59,792 nt of DNA, from NCBI GenBank assembly GCA_903929355.1, contig CAIYUN010000040.1, positions 1-59,792 on the forward strand. The letters run 5' to 3'. Shown piece by piece: positions 35,835 to 55,261 of the stretch. The notes beneath the pieces are model-generated. The model searched no databases, was not told the origin of the DNA, and worked only from the letters and a program-made list of their open reading frames with translations. Position numbers and translations under genes: made by a program. Source of the stretch: an uncultured Opitutaceae bacterium. GTDB lineage: Bacteria; Verrucomicrobiota; Verrucomicrobiia; Opitutales; Opitutaceae. Numbering within the stretch: position 1 is the first letter of the stretch; each line of letters begins with the position of its first letter.

Positions 35835-38234
35835 TCAGCGGGTGGTGGAGGCCGGACCGTTGAGGGAGGTGCCCTGGCTGGTTGACCGGGTGTCGAGCAC
35901 CCATTGCGGCGGCTCGGGATTCAGGTGAATGGCATCCTGCACCACTCGCAGAGACTCCCGGAGATCGATGTCCATCTTGGCGTAGCGCTCGTCGGAATTG
36001 TCGTCATCCGCGTTGTCGGGAGTGACGGATGGGTCGGACGGTGCCGCCTTGATCCGTGCCGGCGGGGGTGGGGCGAGCATGACCTCCGTGAAAGCGTAGC
36101 TGCTGCTTTTCTCCAGGGTCTTGAGCTCGGCATCGGTGGTCTTCTTGTACGCGGCATCGGTGTCCATCTGTTGCTGGCGCGATTTAAGATTGAGCGAGAG
36201 GTCCTTCTGGTCCTGCCGGGCCTTGAACCAGGCGATCGAACGCTGGAGAAAGGAGAACTCGGGCAGCTTGGCCTGACGGGCGGTGCTGGCGGCGCGCAGG
36301 GACGTGAGCGCGGCGGGATCAAGCGCGTGACCGTTAAACTTGCTCGCGGGGATCTCATCCCAGCCCAAGGCATGGGGCAGGCTGGACTCGCCAATCGGCA
36401 GGTAGTCATCGACCGAGGGCAGGATGATGTCGGGCACGACCCCCCGCAGTTGGGTGGAGGAGCCGTTCGGAAGATAAAACTTCTGGATCGTGAGCTTGGT
36501 GGCACCGGTCTTCTGGTCGGCGAAGAGGGCGGCCAGCTGCGGTGGAAAAGCCCGGCTCATCTCGACAATGGTCTGCACGGTGCCCTTGCCGTGGGTGGAG
36601 CTGTCCCCGACGATGATCGCCCGACCATAGTTTTGCAGGGCGCCGGCCACGATTTCCGAGGCCGAGGCGCTGAAGCGGGAAACAAGCACCGCGAGTGGAC
36701 CGGACCAGGCGAGGGCGGGGTCGTCGGCACTGTCCACCTTGACCTCGCCGTCGTGTCCGCGCACCTGAACCACGGGACCTGACTTGATAAAAAGCCCCGT
36801 GAGCTCAACCGCCTCGGAAAGCAGACCGCCACCGTTCCGGCGCAGGTCAAGCACGATGCCTTGGATATGGTCGGCCTGCAGGCGCTTGATCAGCTCCGCC
36901 ACATCCTTGGAAGCCGTGGCCGGATCCGACCCCTCGGTCGCGGAATCGGGTCCATAAAAGCCGGGGAGGGTGATGACGCCGATCGGGACCGTGGACTTGC
37001 CGTCGACGCCGGGAACACTGAAGACGGCCGCGTGGGCGCGGGCGGAGTCAAGGTTGACGATATTGCGCCCGAGCACCACCACCTTGCGGGTGACGCTGGC
37101 CCCTTCGCCCGACTCGATGGTGAGGCGGACGTTGGTGCCTTTGGCCCCGCGGATCATCTGGACGATATTGCGCAGTTTCATCCCGATGACGTCAACCGCC
37201 TCGCCGGTATCCTGGGCGATGGCGGTGATCTTGTCGTTGGGCTTGATCTGCTTGCTCAGGTCGGCCGGGCCACCGGGTATGAGCTCCTTCACCACACAGT
37301 AATTTTCCTCCACGCTGAGAAGCGCCCCGATGCCCACGAGCTGGAGGCGCATCTGAATGCCAAAATCCTCATAGGTGGAGGCGGAGAAATAGGTGGAGTG
37401 GGGATCGTAGAGCTGGGTTATGGCCGTGAGAAATGACTCGGCGAGATCGGAGGCGTCGATGTCGGCCACGTTCTTGGGCAAGAGACCATAACGCTTGCGG
37501 AGGGCATCCTTGGCCTCCGCCAAAGATTTGGTGGGGGCCGGGGCGGCGGTGACGGCCGGCGGGGTCTTGCCCGGTTTGGCCGGCGGGGGTGTCGCGACGT
37601 CGGCGACCGCCTTGGCGCTGAGCATCTCCTGGATCAGGTCGAACTTGAGGCGTCGACGCCAGAGGTCGTCGGCTGCGGCGGCATCGGCCGGCCATTCAGA
37701 CTTGGAGCGGTCCGGGGCATAGGTATCGTTGCCGGTAAGATCGAAGTCCTTGTCCAGTTCCGCCAGAATCCAAGCCACGCGCGCGTGCACGCGGGACTCG
37801 TAAACGGAGAAGATTTCGTAGGCAGGATCGATGTGACCGAGCGAGGAGATGTTCCAGTAAAGATTGTCCGCCGGGTGCCGGGTCAGGAAGTCTTGCTTGT
37901 CGGACCCAAGAAAAAAGAGCCGCTGGCCGTCGAGGCTTCCCATGAAATCCGGGATCAGCTCACCGTAGTTCGCGGGTTTAATGGCGTCGCGGTTGTAGTG
38001 GGCGGCCTCAAGGAGCTGGATCAGGGCACGAATCTCAAGACCGAGGCCGGTGGGAACCTCCATTTTGCGCGCGGGAGCAACTGCACCCGATGCCGCCGGC
38101 GTAGCCGGTGTATTCTGGGCGGGCAAAGCCGGGATGGCGGCCAAGGCCATGAGGGCGGCAAGGAAAAACCCAGCGGTACGAGACAAGCTGGGGCGGAAGC
38201 GGGCGGGTAGGTTCATCAGGGTGTTAGAGGGCAC
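35835..38234 (-). CDS. prc: Tail-specific protease Prc/Tsp (C-terminal processing peptidase)
   Basis: A 799-aa periplasmic S41 protease with a signal peptide (to about residue 40, ALPAQ), a helical N-terminal domain, a PDZ domain (GIGALLSVEENYCVVKELIPGGPADLSKQIKPNDKI) and the catalytic core. The serine sits in SRFSASASEIVAGAL and the lysine in GDSSTHGKGTVQTIVE. It trims the C-termini of periplasmic and membrane proteins. An alternative start is the Met at 38216. An insertion of low-complexity Pro/Ala sequence lies near residues 215-240. Confidence 0.93.
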   Translation of the reverse strand: MPSNTLMNLPARFRPSLSRTAGFFLAALMALAAIPALPAQNTPATPAASGAVAPARKMEVPTGLGLEIRALIQLLEAAHYNRDAIKPANYGELIPDFMGSLDGQRLFFLGSDKQDFLTRHPADNLYWNISSLGHIDPAYEIFSVYESRVHARVAWILAELDKDFDLTGNDTYAPDRSKSEWPADAAAADDLWRRRLKFDLIQEMLSAKAVADVATPPPAKPGKTPPAVTAAPAPTKSLAEAKDALRKRYGLLPKNVADIDASDLAESFLTAITQLYDPHSTYFSASTYEDFGIQMRLQLVGIGALLSVEENYCVVKELIPGGPADLSKQIKPNDKITAIAQDTGEAVDVIGMKLRNIVQMIRGAKGTNVRLTIESGEGASVTRKVVVLGRNIVNLDSARAHAAVFSVPGVDGKSTVPIGVITLPGFYGPDSATEGSDPATASKDVAELIKRLQADHIQGIVLDLRRNGGGLLSEAVELTGLFIKSGPVVQVRGHDGEVKVDSADDPALAWSGPLAVLVSRFSASASEIVAGALQNYGRAIIVGDSSTHGKGTVQTIVEMSRAFPPQLAALFADQKTGATKLTIQKFYLPNGSSTQLRGVVPDIILPSVDDYLPIGESSLPHALGWDEIPASKFNGHALDPAALTSLRAASTARQAKLPEFSFLQRSIAWFKARQDQKDLSLNLKSRQQQMDTDAAYKKTTDAELKTLEKSSSYAFTEVMLAPPPPARIKAAPSDPSVTPDNADDDNSDERYAKMDIDLRESLRVVQDAIHLNPEPPQWVLDTRSTSQGTSLNGPASTTR

Positions 38235-49031: not shown

Positions 49032-49070
49032 CCGATTCGTCCGCGGACGCCACGGAGTGGCGTCCCGATG
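49032..49070 (-). repeat. REP-like palindrome, left copy
   Basis: Contains a 9-bp stem (GGACGCCAC / GTGGCGTCC) around a 3-base loop and the short palindrome TCCGCGGA. Its reverse complement matches the copy at 52572-52610 in 36 of 39 positions. Confidence 0.85.
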
Positions 49071-49089: not shown

Positions 49090-52000
49090 CTAGACCGCCC
49101 GGAGGTCGAGCGTGAAGGGCTGCTCCGGGCTCTCCGGATCGGGTGGGGGGACGTTGATCAGGCCGGGGGTGTGACCATGCGCGATGAAACGTGCCAGGCG
49201 CCGACTTTCCGCCTCGTAGGAGTTTACCGGGAAGCTGTCGTGGCTGCGGCCACCGGGGTGGGCGACATGGTAGGTGCAACCGCCCAGCGAGCGGCGGTTC
49301 CAGGTGTCCACCAGGTCAAACACCACCGGCGCATGGACGCCGATCGTCGGCTGAAGGCAGTTGGGCGGCTGCCAGGCGCGGTAGCGCACCCCCGCCACGC
49401 CCTCGCCGTTGATTCCGGTCGGGTGCAGGGGAATACGGTGGCCGTTGGCGGTGAGCACAAAGCGGTCGCCCACGAGTCCCTTCGCCTTCACCTGCAAACG
49501 CTCCAGGGAGCTGTCCACGTATCGCACCGTGCCGCCCCCGCCGGCCTCCTCGCCGAGCACGTGCCAGGGCTCCAGCGCGGTGCGCAGCTCGACCTCGATG
49601 TCGCGCACCGCAAACTCCCCGACCCGCGGGTAACGGAACTCAAAATGCGGCGCGAACCACTCCGTCTCAAACGGATAGCCGGCGTCGCGCAGGTCACGGA
49701 CCACGTCGGCAAAATCGGTCTGGCAGAAATGCGGCAGCATCCAACGGTCGTGGATGTCGGCGCCCCAGCGGACGAGGCCGTTGGTGTAGGGCTCGCGCCA
49801 GAACTTGCTCACGAGGCCGCGCAGCAGCAGGTGCTGCGCGAGGCTCATGCGTGCATGCGGGGGCATCTCAAACGCGCGCATCTCGACGAGGCCGAGCCGG
49901 CCCGTGGGTCCGTCGGGGGAGTAGAGCTTGTCGATGCTGAACTCGGACCGGTGGGTGTTGCCGGTGGAGTCGGTGAGGAGGTTGCGGAACAGCCGGTCCA
50001 CGAGCCAGGGCGGGTTTGCGCCGCGCTGGAGCTGGCGGTCCATTTCCCTGAAGGCGATGCCCAGCTCGTAGAGACTGTCGTTGCGCGCCTCGTCGATGCG
50101 CGGGGCCTGCGAGGTTGGGCCGATGAAGAGGCCGGAGAACAGGTAGCTGAGCGACGGGTGGTTCTGCCAGTAGGTGAGCAGCGAGCGCAGCAGGTCGGGC
50201 CGGCGGAGCATCGGCGAGTCACCGGGGGTCTCGCCGCCAAGAATGATGTGGTTGCCGCCGCCGGTGCCGGTATGGCGGCCGTCCACCATGAACTTCTCCG
50301 TGCCGAGCCGTGTCTGCCGCGCCTCCTCGTAGAGCACGGTGGTGCGGGTGACGAGCTCGTCCCAGGACTTGCTCGGGTGCATGTTGACCTCGATGACGCC
50401 GGGGTCGGGGGTGACGGCGAGTTTGTTCAGGCGGGGATCCTTCGGGGGCGTCTCACCCTCGATGATGAGGGGCACGCCCATCCCCGCCGCGGCGGTCTCG
50501 ATGCCGGCGATCAGGTCGAGATAGTCCTCGGCTGCGGTGACCGGCGGCATGAAAACATGCAGGCGGCCCTCGCGGGGTTGCACACAAAGGGCGGTGCGGA
50601 TGACCCCCGGAGCACTCTGACCCGGCGCGGGCCGCTCGTCGGGCATCTCGCCGCGGGCCACCTGGCCGCGGACCTGGTTGCCCGGCTGCTGGCCGGCGAG
50701 CCCGGGCGGTCCGCCGCGCGAGGCCTCGGGCTGGCCCGCCAGGTAGCGTTGATGGGGGAAATCCACCGGCAGCGCGGGCAGTTTTTGCGACGGATCCTGC
50801 GGCCAGATCCACGGATAATCCTTGTCCGCGACCCACGGGATCGAGTCGAGCGGGAGGCGCACGCCCATGGGCGAGTCGCCCGGGAGCAGCCAGAGCGTGT
50901 CGTCGTCGCGCAGAAACCACGAGCCCGAGGCCCAGCCGGGTCGGCCGCCGATCATCGCCCGCTTCAGGGGCAGAGTGTAACCCACCGGCGAGCCGAGACC
51001 TTGCTGGAAAATCTGCGCCAGTCGCTCGCGTTCCAGCTTGTTCTTGAGCTGGGATTTCTCGGGGGTGACATTGGAGGGCAGGCGGCGCTCCTTCCATGTG
51101 TAATAGAAAACGTCCTCGTAGCCGGGCAGGAGGTGTGTCGGGTTGACCCCGATGACCTGCGCGATGCGGGTGGCCAGTTCCTTCGCCTCACGCGCGCCAT
51201 GGCCGTAGTTTTTCGACTCGTCGGCGATGAGCGAGTCGTCCTTCCAAACCGGCACGCCGTCCTTGCGCCAGTAGGCGGCCAGCGCCCAACGGGGCAGGGG
51301 CTCGCCCGGATACCATTTGCCCTGACCGTAGTGGAGCAGCGCCCCGGGTGCGAATTTGGCGCGCAGGCGCTTGATAAGCTCACCGGAAAGGGCGCGTTTT
51401 TTGGGGGAGACGGCGGTGAAGTTCCACTCGGGACCGTCGGGATCGTCCACCGAGATGAAGGTCGGTTCGCCCCCCATCGTGAGGCGCACGTCGTTCTTCA
51501 CCAGGTCGGCGTCAATCGCGTGGCCGAGGGTCTCAATCCTGCCCCACTGGTCGTCGGTGTAGGGCAGCGTGACGCGGGGCGACTCATACACCCGCTGGAC
51601 GGACATCTCGAACTCGAACTTGGTCTCGCACTCGTCGACCCCGCCGGTGATGGGGGCCGCGCTGGACGGCTCGGGCGAGCAGGCGAGGGGGATGTGCCCC
51701 TCGCCGGCGAACAAGCCCGAGGTCGGGTCGAGGCCGACCCAGCCGGCGCCGGGCAGATAGACCTCACACCAGGCGTGCAGGTCGGTGAAGTCCTCCGCCG
51801 CGCCTGACGGGCCGTCGAGCGCCTTCACGTCGGCCCGGAGCTGGATAAGGTAACCTGACACAAAGCGGGCGGCGAGTCCGGCGTGGCGGAGTGTCTGCAC
51901 CATCAGCCAGGCCGAGTCGCGGCAGGAGCCGCTGCCAAGAGTCAGGGTTTGCTCGGGGGTCTGCACCCCCGGCTCCAGTCGGATGACGTATTTGACCAGC

Positions 52001-52464
52001 TGGTTCAGCTGGCTGTTCAGGGCGACGAGGAAATCAATCGCGCGCTGGGGCTTGAGGTCGAGCGCGGCCACAAACGCGGCGAAGCGGGGTTTGCGCGGGC
52101 GTTTGCGCAGGTAGGGCGACAGCTCGGCCGCGAGCGAGCGGTCGTAGGTGAAGGGAAATTTCTCCGCGTAGGGCTCGAGAAAGAAATCGAAGGGGTTGTA
52201 AACGGCGAGCTCGGCGACCAGGTCCACCTCGACCGAGAACTCCGTCACTTTCTCGGGATAGACCACCCGGGCCAGGTAGTTGCTGAACGGATCCTGCTGC
52301 CAGTTCACGAAGTTGCCTTCCGCCGGCTTGAGTGTGAGCGAGTAGCTCAGAATGGGCGTCCGGCAGTGCGGGGCGGGCCGCAGGCGGATGACCTGCGGGC
52401 CGAGGGTGACCGGGCGGTCGTAGCGGTAGGTGGTGCGGTGGTGGAGGGCGGCGTGGATGGCCAT
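49090..52464 (-). CDS. Transglutaminase-like / DUF2126 fusion protein
   Basis: An 1124-aa cytoplasmic protein. The first ~90 residues form the bacterial transglutaminase N-terminal domain ([23 protein letters not shown]). The transglutaminase core follows with the catalytic Cys in [20 protein letters not shown] and His/Asp in [23 protein letters not shown]. From about residue 330 the large DUF2126 part contains [23 protein letters not shown] and many conserved His/Asp/Arg motifs ([27 protein letters not shown]). The family often lies with circularly permuted ATP-grasp and alpha-E proteins in a peptide-modifying locus, but none of those is in this window. Flanked on both sides by REP-like palindromes. 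Confidence 0.92.
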   Translation of the reverse strand: [1124 protein letters not shown]

Positions 52465-52772
52465 GGAGCTTGGGAAACAGAGGTTAAACTGCCTTAGCAG
52501 GACTTGGGCCGCAATGACGGAAAGGCGGATGATGAATAACTGAATGACCGAGGGTGGAACGCCATTCTGTTGGTCGGGACGCCACTCCGTGGCGTCCGCG
52601 GACGACTCGGCGATGCGTCCGACCCCGCTGCGGTCCGAACTTTGCCATTGCCGATTGCCGGAGGGGGCGCACTGTCCTCTGCGGTGTTTTCCTGCCGGAT
52701 CGCAGGGCAGGAGATCGTCGAAAGTGGCCCCAAATCGTCATCCGAGAAGGACTACTTTCTCAGGTTACAGCT
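52465..52772. other. Intergenic region between the DUF2126 gene and tRNA-Ser
   Basis: No gene in these 308 bp. It holds the right REP-like palindrome (52572-52610) and a TTAAACTGCCTTAGCAGG stretch at 52484-52501 that resembles the sequence flanking the att sites downstream. The tRNA-Ser promoter should lie in the last 60 bp; I see no clear hexamers. Confidence 0.5.
52572..52610 (+). repeat. REP-like palindrome, right copy
   Basis: Inverted partner of 49032-49070 with the same GGACGCCAC / GTGGCGTCC stem. The pair encloses the 3.4-kb DUF2126 gene. Confidence 0.85.
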
Positions 52773-52862
52773 GGAGAGGTGGCAGAGTGGTCTATTGCGG
52801 CGGTCTTGAAAACCGCTGAGCCCGCAAGGGTTCCGGGGGTTCGAATCCCTCCCTCTCCGCCA
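52773..52862 (+). tRNA. tRNA-Ser (anticodon TGA)
   Basis: A 90-nt class II tRNA. Acceptor GGAGAGG pairs with CCTCTCC, the anticodon loop is CTTGAAA, the long variable arm is typical of serine tRNAs, and the end is CCA. Its 3' 19 bases are part of the left att repeat of the integrative element, so the tRNA gene is kept intact after integration. Confidence 0.95.
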
Positions 52863-52867
52863 GTTAA
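52844..52867 (+). repeat. Left attachment site (attL) of the integrative element
   Basis: A 24-bp sequence starting in the T-arm of tRNA-Ser (AATCCCTCCCTC) and ending CAGTTAA. It recurs without change at 55034-55057. Confidence 0.9.
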
Positions 52868-52904
52868 GCTGCCTTAAATCAGCAACTTAACTTTTAGGGG
52901 CAGC

Positions 52905-52931
52905 TAGGTTGCCAGTTGACGTGGCAACCTA
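52905..52931. promoter_or_regulatory. Perfect hairpin/operator just before the integrase start
   Basis: TAGGTTGCCA and TGGCAACCTA form a perfect 10-bp inverted repeat around GTTGACG, ending 3 bp before the integrase ATG. It may be an operator for autoregulation, or an RNA hairpin that occludes the start. A TTGAC in the loop could be a -35 element. Confidence 0.7.
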
Positions 52932-52934
52932 AAC

Positions 52935-54158
52935 ATGAACCACACCACGTTTGCCCTGTCCGAGTTCGAGAACCGCAACGGCGCTTCCTCCTGGCGGGTG
53001 TCCGGCTTTTTGGCCGGCGTCCGCATCCGTCAAAACTTCAAATCCAAGGCCGAGGCGGCGGCGGCGAAGGCCACGCTGGAGATTCGGGCGCTCCAAGCTG
53101 CGGCTGGCGGCGTCCGCTCCGCCACCACGTTCCTGTCTGCCGAACAGCTCCGCGAGGCCGAGGCCACCTTCTGCCGGCTCAAGGATGGCCCGCACTCGCT
53201 CACGTCCCTCATTGACTACGCCCTCGCCAACTACCGCGAGCCCGAACGGCAGAAGTCCTTGGAGGAGGCGGCGACGGCCTACCTTGCGACCAAGCAGGCC
53301 GAGCACGACCGAAAGATTATCTGCCCCTCGCAGTTCACCACGATCCGCCGGCACTTGGAGGTGCTCAAGAGCCACTTTCCCCGAGGCATGGTGGCAGACC
53401 TCACCGCACCGCGCCTCACAGCGTATTTCCAGCGCGGAAATGTCGGCCTGAAAACCTACAACAACCGCCGGGGCGTGGTTTCGACGTTCCTCAAGTTCGC
53501 ATTCCAACAGGATTGGATCGCCGCAAATCCCATCGGCAAGGTCGCATATCATCGCATCGCGCACCGGCGCGGCTCGGCGCAGACCCTCACGGCCGCGCGG
53601 GCGCAGGAACTGATGACCCGCGTCGAGAACTACCGCGACGGCGCACTCGTCCCATTTTTCGCGCTCTGCCTTTTCGCCGGCATCCGCCCCTGTGTGCGCA
53701 CGGGCGAAATCCTCAAACTTCGCGCCGAGCAGGTCCGGCTCGAAACCGGAGTGATTCACATCGAGCCCGAGGTCTCCAAGGTCAGAATGAAACGCTCCGT
53801 GACGATCCAGCCCAACCTTGCGGCGTGGCTGACGGCCTACCCGTTGACCCAGTATCCGATCATCATCCCGGCCCTTCAAAAACACCGCTACCGCCTCGCC
53901 AAGGAGTTTGGCCTGTCGCACGATGTGCTCCGTCACACATTTATCAGCATGCACGTCGCGAAATTCCGCTCCATGGGCGAGGCGGCGTTGCAGGCCGGCA
54001 ACTCCGAGAGCATCATCCGCAAGCACTACCTCGATTTGAAGACGCCCGCCGAGGCCGAGGAGTTCTTCAGCATCATGCCGAAGGGCCACGCCGGCGCCGC
54101 CACGGGCCAAACGTTGCCCTTCCCGGCGCAGGGGGCGGCCATGGCAGCGACCGGCTGA
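52935..54158 (+). CDS. Tyrosine recombinase (integrase)
   Basis: A 407-aa site-specific recombinase. An N-terminal SAM-like core-binding domain lies near residues 95-190. The catalytic domain has the Arg in FAGIRPCVRTGEILKLRAEQV, the His-Arg box in LSHDVLRHTFISMHVAKF and the nucleophile Tyr in IRKHYLDLKTP. It lies directly behind tRNA-Ser and is the only clear gene of the element bounded by 24-bp att repeats. It should catalyse integration into and excision from the tRNA 3' end. No excisionase is recognisable. Confidence 0.93.
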   Translation: MNHTTFALSEFENRNGASSWRVSGFLAGVRIRQNFKSKAEAAAAKATLEIRALQAAAGGVRSATTFLSAEQLREAEATFCRLKDGPHSLTSLIDYALANYREPERQKSLEEAATAYLATKQAEHDRKIICPSQFTTIRRHLEVLKSHFPRGMVADLTAPRLTAYFQRGNVGLKTYNNRRGVVSTFLKFAFQQDWIAANPIGKVAYHRIAHRRGSAQTLTAARAQELMTRVENYRDGALVPFFALCLFAGIRPCVRTGEILKLRAEQVRLETGVIHIEPEVSKVRMKRSVTIQPNLAAWLTAYPLTQYPIIIPALQKHRYRLAKEFGLSHDVLRHTFISMHVAKFRSMGEAALQAGNSESIIRKHYLDLKTPAEAEEFFSIMPKGHAGAATGQTLPFPAQGAAMAATG

Positions 54159-54555
54159 CGAGCCCGTCAAATCGCCACCAACACGCCCGCGCCATCATCC
54201 GGCGCGGGCACCCGCAATCAAATTGACCGCCGAAACCGACGGGGTAAAACAAGCCATGGATACCCGCTACATTGCCCGCCTGATCGTCCGCCTCCAAGCA
54301 ACATCATTCTTGGTCTATGGGTTGGACGCTTCAAGCACACTAGGCCCTTAGGCTCCCCAAACCCGTCTTTCGCCCCGAATGGTCGGACTGAAAGCGATGT
54401 CGCCTCCTGGCGGCTGAGCGTCAGGCCGATGGTTCGGGGCGGGATTTTCAGAACCCGCGAATGCGGGTTCAACCCGTCCGATCTTTCCGTGATAGAATAA
54501 AGGACATCCCTGTCCTTTTTACCCGTCTAAACCCGTCCGTGGGTGAACCCGTGCA
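54159..54555. other. Non-coding part of the integrative element after the integrase
   Basis: No gene. A perfect 9-bp hairpin (GCCCGCGCC / GGCGCGGGC) lies about 30 bp after the integrase stop. A second (AACCCGC-GAAT-GCGGGTT) is near 54455-54475. The word ACCCGTC recurs several times (around 54350, 54475, 54525 and 54535). A T-tailed hairpin at 54499-54520 could end transcription. Confidence 0.55.
54499..54520 (+). terminator. Rho-independent terminator inside the integrative element
   Basis: AAAGGACA and TGTCCTTT pair around TCCC, followed by further T residues. It separates the integrase transcript from the stem-loop array downstream. Confidence 0.75.
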
Positions 54556-55021
54556 CGGCGCGTTAGCGCCGGATGAGGGAGGTTGGAGGCGAGCGCGGCA
54601 GGCACTAGCCGCGCGAGCCGGAAACCGACCGAAGTCGGGGATGCCGCAACGCGTCAGAAACGCGGGAAACCGTTGCGAACTAAGGACGTTTGGGAATCAG
54701 TGCCCCTCCCCATGTGGGGAGGGGGGTGGGGAGGGGTGAAAACGCACGGATTTTTGGACACTTGTCCTTGAAAAGGGAGGGCGTGCGGAGTCAAAGGGTC
54801 GCACCAGTCGGGGTGTTTCCTCCCACCCTGTCGGATGGGGTGGGAGGAGGAGTTACGCTGCGGGATTTTCAGCGAAGAAAGTTCGAACCTTGGACAACAA
54901 GCACCGCCAATTCGGCGTAGCCAAATTGGCGCGTCCGGCGCAGCCGGACAGTGTGCGCGAAGCGAACACGAGGGGGGATATGGGCAAACCGGCGCGGAGC
55001 GACGGTTTGGGGCGAAGCCCC
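54556..55021. repeat. Array of eleven stem-loops, the last five with C(GNA)G triloops
   Basis: Consecutive hairpins: 54556-54571 (CGGCGC, loop GTTA), 54593-54614, 54625-54638, 54650-54664, 54703-54724 (9 bp), 54819-54847 (10 bp), then 54906-54930 (loop GTA), 54933-54949 (GCA), 54951-54969 (GAA), 54985-55009 (GGA), 55009-55021 (GAA). The last five follow each other within 116 bp and all close with C-GNA-G. No supportable ORF overlaps the block. It ends 12 bp before the right att repeat. Confidence 0.85.
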
Positions 55022-55033
55022 GAGGAACGAGTC

Positions 55034-55057
55034 AATCCCTCCCTCTCCGCCAGTTAA
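55034..55057 (+). repeat. Right attachment site (attR) of the integrative element
   Basis: Exact direct repeat of 52844-52867. The next 16 bases (AGTGGCTTAAACCAGC) are also similar to those after the left copy (GCTGCCTTAAATCAGC), which suggests shared arm sites. The element between the repeats is 2.19 kb. Confidence 0.9.
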
Positions 55058-55063
55058 AGTGGC

Positions 55064-55261
55064 TTAAACCAGCCGGTTGCAGGCCCGGCACAGGGGATTC
55101 TGGGCCAAATAGGCGCGACTGGCGCGTCGCCAGCGGTGATCGAGGCCGGAGTGCTCAGGTGCGTGGTGTGCTTGCGCAAGCGGAGCCCAGAGTGGCAGGT
55201 AGGCCAACACTCCATATTCATCCGGGCTCGCTCCGTTTACGCTGAAAACAGCATGAAACAA
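55064..55261 (-). pseudogene. Possible HNH endonuclease remnant cut at the att site
   Basis: A 65-aa frame ends HRWRRASRAYLAQNPLCRACNRLV. The spacing R-x(5)-YL-x(3)-PLC-x2-C is that of the first half of phage-type HNH nucleases. It stops a few bases from attR, with the HNH core missing. It may be debris of an earlier insertion at the same tRNA. The 130 bp to the next gene (55262-55392) hold nothing recognisable. Confidence 0.4.

Follow-up and report, generated by a model that had tools for sequence, protein, structure and literature searches.

The hairpin cluster described here is very probably a single tRNA-linked repeat (TLR) unit of about 140 bp (54911-55052), namely a variant rich in GNA hairpins of the class represented by tyrT/rttR and serX in E. 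coli. The comparison with related loci shows that it belongs downstream of the tRNA-Ser(TGA) gene of the window, i.e. the whole stretch of 59,792 nucleotides (59.8 kb) that was analyzed (Table 1). What accounts for the cluster is a type of element already known, though still little understood, here in a GNA-rich form and in a far relative: most knowledge of the class comes from E. coli and related species, and it is found here in a quite different bacterial group. TLRs were first described in 1978, and a paper of 2021 still states that they have no known function (passages of PMC8144298). Units from far relatives provide a comparative power beyond that of E. coli alone: changes in the tRNA are accompanied by changes in the copied tail and the inverted copy, covariation is seen in the terminal hairpin, and the units of one genus descend along with their tRNA. 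The original prediction, an array of eleven hairpins (54556-55021) next to an "attR", was mostly right in what it observed and misread the setting.

Table 1. Features of the tRNA-Ser locus, the integrase island and the TLR unit (positions in the window)
Feature	Position	Strand	Remarks
tRNA-Ser(TGA)	52773-52862	+	ARAGORN, Rfam; the unit is linked to this gene
Last 19 nt of tRNA-Ser	52844-52862	+	Identical to 55034-55052
Integrase island	52863-54910	+	2.05 kb; between tRNA and unit; left and right end homology
Integrase ORF	52935-54158	+	407 aa; Pfam PF00589 Phage_integrase, 19.6 bits, below the curated cut-off of 27.1
Non-coding right part of island	54159-54910	+	Contains the first six hairpins of the original prediction
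Right end of island	54880-54910	+	Diverged tRNA-end-like core; homology to L066 and L031 stops at 54912
TLR unit body	54911-55033	+	Match of model R1, 84.7 bits; the window unit is among the 15 sequences of R1
hp1	54905-54931	+	Loop GTA; 5' arm takes CGCCA, the tRNA end in intact loci
hp2	54933-54949	+	Loop GCA
hp3	54951-54969	+	Loop GAA; one G-A mismatch
Inverted copy of tRNA-end core	54970-54979	+	Pairs with the copied tail as helix P1 (fold; RtT consensus; co-tracking)
hp4	54985-55009	+	Loop GGA; one G-A mismatch
hp5	55009-55021	+	Loop GAA; 55007-55023 when delimited as a C-GNA-G hairpin
hp6	55021-55031	+	Short form of the terminal hairpin Y-GA-GC-GNA-GC-GA-R with tandem G-A
Copied tail	55034-55052	+	19 nt identical to the 3' end of tRNA-Ser (52844-52862)

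Organization of the locus

The tRNA-end region recurs as an exact 24-bp repeat (52844-52867 and 55034-55057) that brackets the segment 52863-55033. The right copy of this repeat had been taken for the attR of an integrase element; we read it instead as the copied tRNA 3' end that belongs to the unit, followed by 5 bp. The similarity past the repeat extends to 40 bp at 90%, which the island boundary alone does not explain, and 55053-55076, behind the copied tail, resembles the left end of the island and perhaps represents a decayed second island end.

The right end of the island has homologs in G004 (L066, 83.7% over 166 bp) and G029 (L031, 71.1% over 90 bp); both alignments stop at 54912, and no unit is present behind the island end in either locus (G004 is also without a match of our covariance model R1, see below). 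The sequence after 54912 in the window completes hp1, as it does behind intact tRNAs. Given that the right-end homology stops at this point and hp1 is then completed as at intact tRNAs, the comparison of the sequences locates the island between tRNA-Ser and its unit, and it appears to have arrived after the unit. The tRNA is not immediately upstream of the window unit due to the intervening island; it is found at a distance of 2048 nt. The same order, with the integrase on the tRNA side of the unit, is present in locus L299.

This layout divides the predicted array of eleven hairpins, as the first six are located in the non-coding right part of the island and the last five belong to the tRNA-linked unit. 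It is extremely unlikely that the hairpins belong to the integrase element and move with it as an array recognized by the recombinase. The bracketing by the exact 24-bp repeat would agree with such an array, but the island right end stops before the unit in both homologs, and integrase relatives, which occur in 115/189 related genomes (E <= 0.001), are found in no more than five of the 46 sources with units, two of which (L036 and L044) were chosen for their integrase. Moreover, E. coli K-12 harbors units of like design without an annotated integrase in the stretches examined. An att-like repeat beside a hairpin cluster does not require that the cluster is the integrase's own. It is also very unlikely that the copied tail acts as a decoy for attachment, capturing islands and thereby sparing the tRNA gene. 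An integrase starts about 100 bp behind the copied tail in L036 and L269, as a decoy would have it, but it is located on the tRNA side of the unit in the window and in L299, and the E. coli class is also found behind 5S rRNA genes (passages of PMC8144298), where no decoy is needed.

Further features of the island region were observed. The segment 54340-54560 contains a 21-bp inverted repeat (54371-54391 / 54421-54441) and, by eye, several AACCCG-type repeats, which are perhaps arm-type integrase sites. A segment of about 38 bp directly in front of the integrase start (52902-52940), which includes a GGTTGCCAGTTGACGTGGCAACC hairpin, is up to 100% conserved among the integrase relatives. Elsewhere in this genome, the 3' end of another tRNA-Ser recurs at a distance of about 7 kb (L225, G000:C53:31043-31061 / 38113-38131), which probably reflects another island.

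Hairpin composition and folding

The five hairpins with C-GNA-G triloops (GTA, GCA, GAA, GGA and GAA) are present at 54905-55023 as predicted, together with the G/A mismatches in the third and fourth of them. The inverted copy of the tRNA end (54970-54979) and the sixth small hairpin (55021-55031), which is reduced to CGA-G-GAA-C-GAG in the window, had escaped the original prediction. With a threshold of at least six pairs and at most one mismatch, the 59.8-kb window contains 11 C(GNA)G hairpins on the + strand and eight of the mirror class, and five of the 11 are packed into 120 bp.

The DNA fold of 54900-55022 has a z-score of -3.57 (0/200 shuffles as good) and the RNA fold of 54905-55052 one of -3.35 (1/200); helix P1 between the inverted copy and the copied tail is part of both the minimum-energy fold and the centroid of the latter. 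The RNA fold of the complete array (54556-55021) reaches a z-score of -6.02 (0/100 shuffles as good), and its part 54556-54904 is strongly structured as well (z -5.88, 0/100). Shuffling, which had been proposed as a test of the hairpins, rarely yields loops of this class: C(GNA)G loops are present in 27 of the 62 hairpins of 16 non-redundant family units versus 0/162 in five shuffles, and in 41 of the 205 hairpins of 53 other units versus 2/413 in three shuffles. A DNA-fold z-score below -2 was found for 8/16 family units and 50/53 other units. In the left part of the units, 15 of 24 C(GNA)G sites are flanked by at least four of five possible pairs, compared with 7/248 sites in positions 1-54000 of the window. 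A chance origin of the hairpins is rejected by the hairpin counts of the window, the DNA and RNA folds and the unit shuffles.

Distribution and covariation of the units

A search with the unit covered 252 genomes of the window's family, and most of the weak matches listed correspond to the tRNA end alone. The covariance model R1, built from 15 units including that of the window, matches 67 of the 252 genomes (E <= 0.001, strict filters). One of the six genomes in the window's genus has a match, thus indicating that the unit is dispensable. Of 54 R1 matches, 53 from 46 sources were examined; the omitted row is cut by a contig end. The match is located no further than 6 nt from the 3' end of a tRNA in 28 cases (27 Ser, 1 Gln). 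The other 25 are not directly at a detected tRNA; part of these follow a further unit or an isolated copy of a tRNA end, and some follow neither. The unit class as a whole is found behind Ser, Leu, Glu, Gln, Tyr and Pro tRNAs, and genome G111 harbors three tandem units at 159-bp steps behind tRNA-Leu.

The copies brought in by the search share the layout of the window unit. The tRNA 3' end with hp1, whose arm uses the CGCCA of the tRNA, is followed by two hairpins, the inverted tRNA-end core, hp4, hp5 and finally the 3' end of the same tRNA once more. The stems, whose absence from all homologs would have refuted the original prediction, are kept, and structure is conserved over sequence. In a set of 14 non-redundant units, from which two without a TGG anchor were dropped for hp1, hp1 is paired in 46/48 cells (12 units; mean of re-dealt arms 25.8) and hp4 in 68/70 (14 units; 48.0), and none of 1000 re-dealt sets was as good in either case.

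The copied tail follows the local tRNA. It agrees with the last 16 nt of this tRNA in 14.75 positions on average, with at least 14 matches in 98 of 116 pairs, 86 of which are Ser-GGA, many of them enteric and closely related; tRNAs of other isotypes agree in 9.7 positions, and those of the same isotype but with a different end in 12.9. The inverted copy tracks the tail in turn, with 6.63 of 8 pairs versus 6.28 after re-dealing (0/1000; 87 distinct rows), and a wider automatic count, which includes false rows, gave 6.19/9 versus 5.64.

The closing pair of the terminal hairpin Y-GA-GC-GNA-GC-GA-R is C-G in 108, T-A in 52, C-A in three, T-G in one and another combination in six of 170 distinct sites (P 7e-38, kinship ignored). 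The 75 non-redundant sites provide the same picture (44 C-G, 23 T-A, 3 C-A, 1 T-G, 4 other; P 2e-14). This covariation fits the tandem G-A of RtT, which was found by covariation analysis as reported in parts of PMC7657543 and PMC8250186. The role of a CsrA sponge, as proposed for RrB, was considered for the loop of hp6 and rejected: the variable loop base of hp6 is a G in 3/170 sites, hence GGA is rare in this loop.

Relationship to the E. coli repeats and the RtT RNAs

A scan of genome contigs with the right-end motif retrieved at least 118 stretches, many of them located beside tRNA-Ser in Enterobacteriaceae. Chromatiales, Thiodiazotropha, Alcanivorax, Chlorobiaceae, Bacteroidales and Verrucomicrobia are among the matches listed, for part of which the tRNA was checked. 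An enteric unit together with its flanks is matched in 5375 of 5426 E. coli genomes, with 80% or more of the length covered in 3321 of them, and the matching places are often annotated as RtT sRNA. The tyrT and serX units of K-12 share the plan of the unit. At serX, R1 matches three times in K-12 and five times in strain QDFD216, and RtT two and four times at its cut-off; the copy number in E. coli is variable according to these counts.

The hallmark of TLRs is a stretch of 18-19 bp identical to the end of the upstream tRNA or rRNA (passages of PMC8144298), and the window unit exhibits it over 19/19 nt (55034-55052 versus 52844-52862). Further features shared with the TLRs of E. coli (tyrT/rttR, serX, rrA/rrB/rrF; PMC8144298) are the location behind a stable-RNA gene whose 3' end is repeated in the last 18-19 bp, tandem copies, the inverted copy, the GNA hairpins and the terminal hairpin with tandem G-A. 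The window unit differs in three GNA hairpins at the place of the terminator-type left part of the enteric units, in its shortened hp6 and in the integrase island before it.

The Rfam model RtT (RF00391), which was built independently of our data, provides a second link. It matches 17 of 189 related genomes at E <= 0.01, three of them over the cut-off, and solely E. coli among 14 control genomes. Of the 12 RtT-type loci examined in the family, one proved to be a false match and the remaining 11 follow a tRNA gene (Ser in six, Tyr in three and Pro in two cases); the copy of the tRNA tail at the end is intact in eight and decayed in two of the ten units displayed. R1 and RtT coincide at G007, G037, G060 and G017, and R1 falls on the unit in three of the ten loci with displayed units. 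On the serX units of E. coli R1 scores weakly (E 0.024-0.034), and it has no match on the tyrT units of K-12. Helix P1 is also part of the Rfam RtT consensus, and sister units in the window's family pass the RtT cut-off, whereas the window unit stays below the gathering score (54959-55052, 16.4 versus 45 bits, E 4.2, whole model 1-130); at cut-off, the two tRNAs are the only Rfam RNAs in the window. Rfam matches of sX4 and Plastid-psbl-rps4 lie largely over tRNA and were set aside. Because the copied end is present, while the adjacency to the tRNA is interrupted by the island and the RtT score is too low, we assign the window unit to the TLRs, as a variant, rather than to the RtT RNAs.

The rrB type has been found in 31 species of 12 genera, all Enterobacteriales (passages of PMC8144298), members of Rfam RtT have been reported from Pasteurellaceae too (part of PMC4986893), and rtT-like sequences are described in BIMEs (part of PMC2965389). 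In the literature searched, whose coverage excludes most subscription journals, we recognized no description of TLRs in Verrucomicrobia.

A trailer RNA as proposed product

Among the three roles originally proposed, i.e. a structured RNA, a recognition array or a replication signal, the structured RNA is the best guess because the unit belongs with the tRNA-linked repeats and RtT RNAs; none of the observations suggests a replication signal. In intact loci, the tRNA transcript would extend through the unit as a 3' trailer; pairing of the inverted copy with the copied tail as P1 would enclose hp4 to hp6, and the copied tail would present the same 3' end once more to the tRNA-maturing RNases. As the tRNA 3' end is offered again by the copied tail, we propose that a structured RNA of about 120-140 nt is released. 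For E. coli, co-transcription and processing of RrA/B/F are in print, a trailer and its processing have been proposed for RrB, and RNase E was suggested to recognize the copied end of the latter (passages of PMC8144298). The identity of the unit and this mechanism taken together represent a likely account, and the chances of the mechanism itself are about even. In the window, the island probably separates the unit from the tRNA promoter, so that the window unit is likely a stranded copy.

Alternatively, the main function of the unit could be to stop transcription downstream of the tRNA or to act as an insulator there, in which case local duplication would have produced the copied tail incidentally. 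Enteric units indeed open with a hairpin and a T-run at 116/175 sites (the search required at least five pairs), and transcription of tyrT is terminated in a Rho-dependent manner. This role is nevertheless rather unlikely, as the displayed units of the window type are without a T-run and a terminator needs neither an inverted copy that tracks the tail nor a conserved tandem G-A hairpin.

Possible DNA-level constraint, inheritance and mobility

The base pairs of the stems provide a hint of constraint at the level of DNA. G-T pairs account for 1/231 paired cells of hp1, hp4 and the enteric hpB, compared with 13/230 in tRNA acceptor stems (P 0.0008), and for 2/28 versus 13/28 of the non-Watson-Crick cells if the closing pair of hp6 is included (P 0.0019); both tests are post hoc and take no account of relatedness. 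In these enteric loci, the terminator hairpins, whose selection counted G-T as a pair, contain 17 G-T in 146 paired cells. The unpooled sets are less clear, with G-T in 16/57 (hpC) and 4/35 (all C(GNA)G sites) of the non-Watson-Crick cells; hpC of the enteric units is poorly anchored and was left out of the pool. The scarcity of G-T could reflect selection on DNA or the mutational perfecting of inverted repeats.

Such a constraint would be expected if the unit were a mobile cassette at the DNA level, of which a recombinase recognizes the extruded or single-stranded hairpins and moves about 140 bp between the 3' ends of tRNAs. The tandem copies and the direct repeat formed by the copied tail point in the same direction, as does the variable presence at syntenic tRNAs: one such tRNA carries a degenerate unit in G048 and none within the first 190 nt in G078, and at another a unit in G048 stands against an integrase island in G100. 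The latter genome harbors two relatives of this G048 unit (91-92%) elsewhere, with differing downstream flanks. However, these two copies have about 140 bp upstream in common and may for this reason have moved with islands or by conversion. The higher G-T content of hpC and of all C(GNA)G sites weakens the case, and a fixed att core would not track each tRNA as the tail does.

The pattern of identity in genus g19 also argues against active mobility. The set comprises 18 units, including one doubtful short row that was kept, from 13 of 20 loci; the other seven are without a unit according to the pattern. Units at the same tRNA of different genomes share a mean identity of 67.5% (n=16), versus 59.1% for different tRNAs of one genome (n=19) and 57.5% if both differ (n=110), and the Glu and Leu-CAA units group across genomes. 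Since the g19 units group by tRNA and not by genome, descent with the tRNA and local duplication are favored, and active mobility of the unit is not. The mobile cassette is accordingly distinctly unlikely. We would grade in the same way the broader scenario that TLRs are ancient and cross-phylum, with hairpins (GNA loops, tandem G-A, very few G-T pairs) maintained at the DNA level, and spread by copying the 3' end of the stable-RNA gene behind which they land, which would be a hitherto unrecognized, target-copying insertion of folded DNA.

Carriage by phages was examined as well. The window unit has no match in the phage records, which argues against the mobile cassette, and an enteric unit has a single weak one among 50,697. 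Eight stretches of viral contigs (L200-L207) carry the terminal TLR motif; their surrounding sequence was read, and they may represent host flanks of proviruses at tRNA-Ser. Two of the stretches were scanned with Rfam, and L203 contains two RtT matches at cut-off.

Integron attC sites, REP/RAYT and IS200/IS605 elements resemble the unit in having DNA hairpins beside or with inverted core copies. By contrast, no cassette genes were seen with the unit, and its tail depends on the tRNA of the locus. No partner enzyme for the unit, such as a Y1 transposase or an integron integrase, was identified by a Pfam scan covering ten ORFs. Independent of the unit, two near-identical 21-bp palindromes with opposite loop strands (49045-49065 and 52577-52597) flank a DUF2126 gene (49090-52464) in the window. 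They have the form ggacgccac-GGA-gtggcgtcc and its mirror and look REP-like; another copy of the second form occurs in this genome at L033, and similar palindromes are present beside it and in L035.
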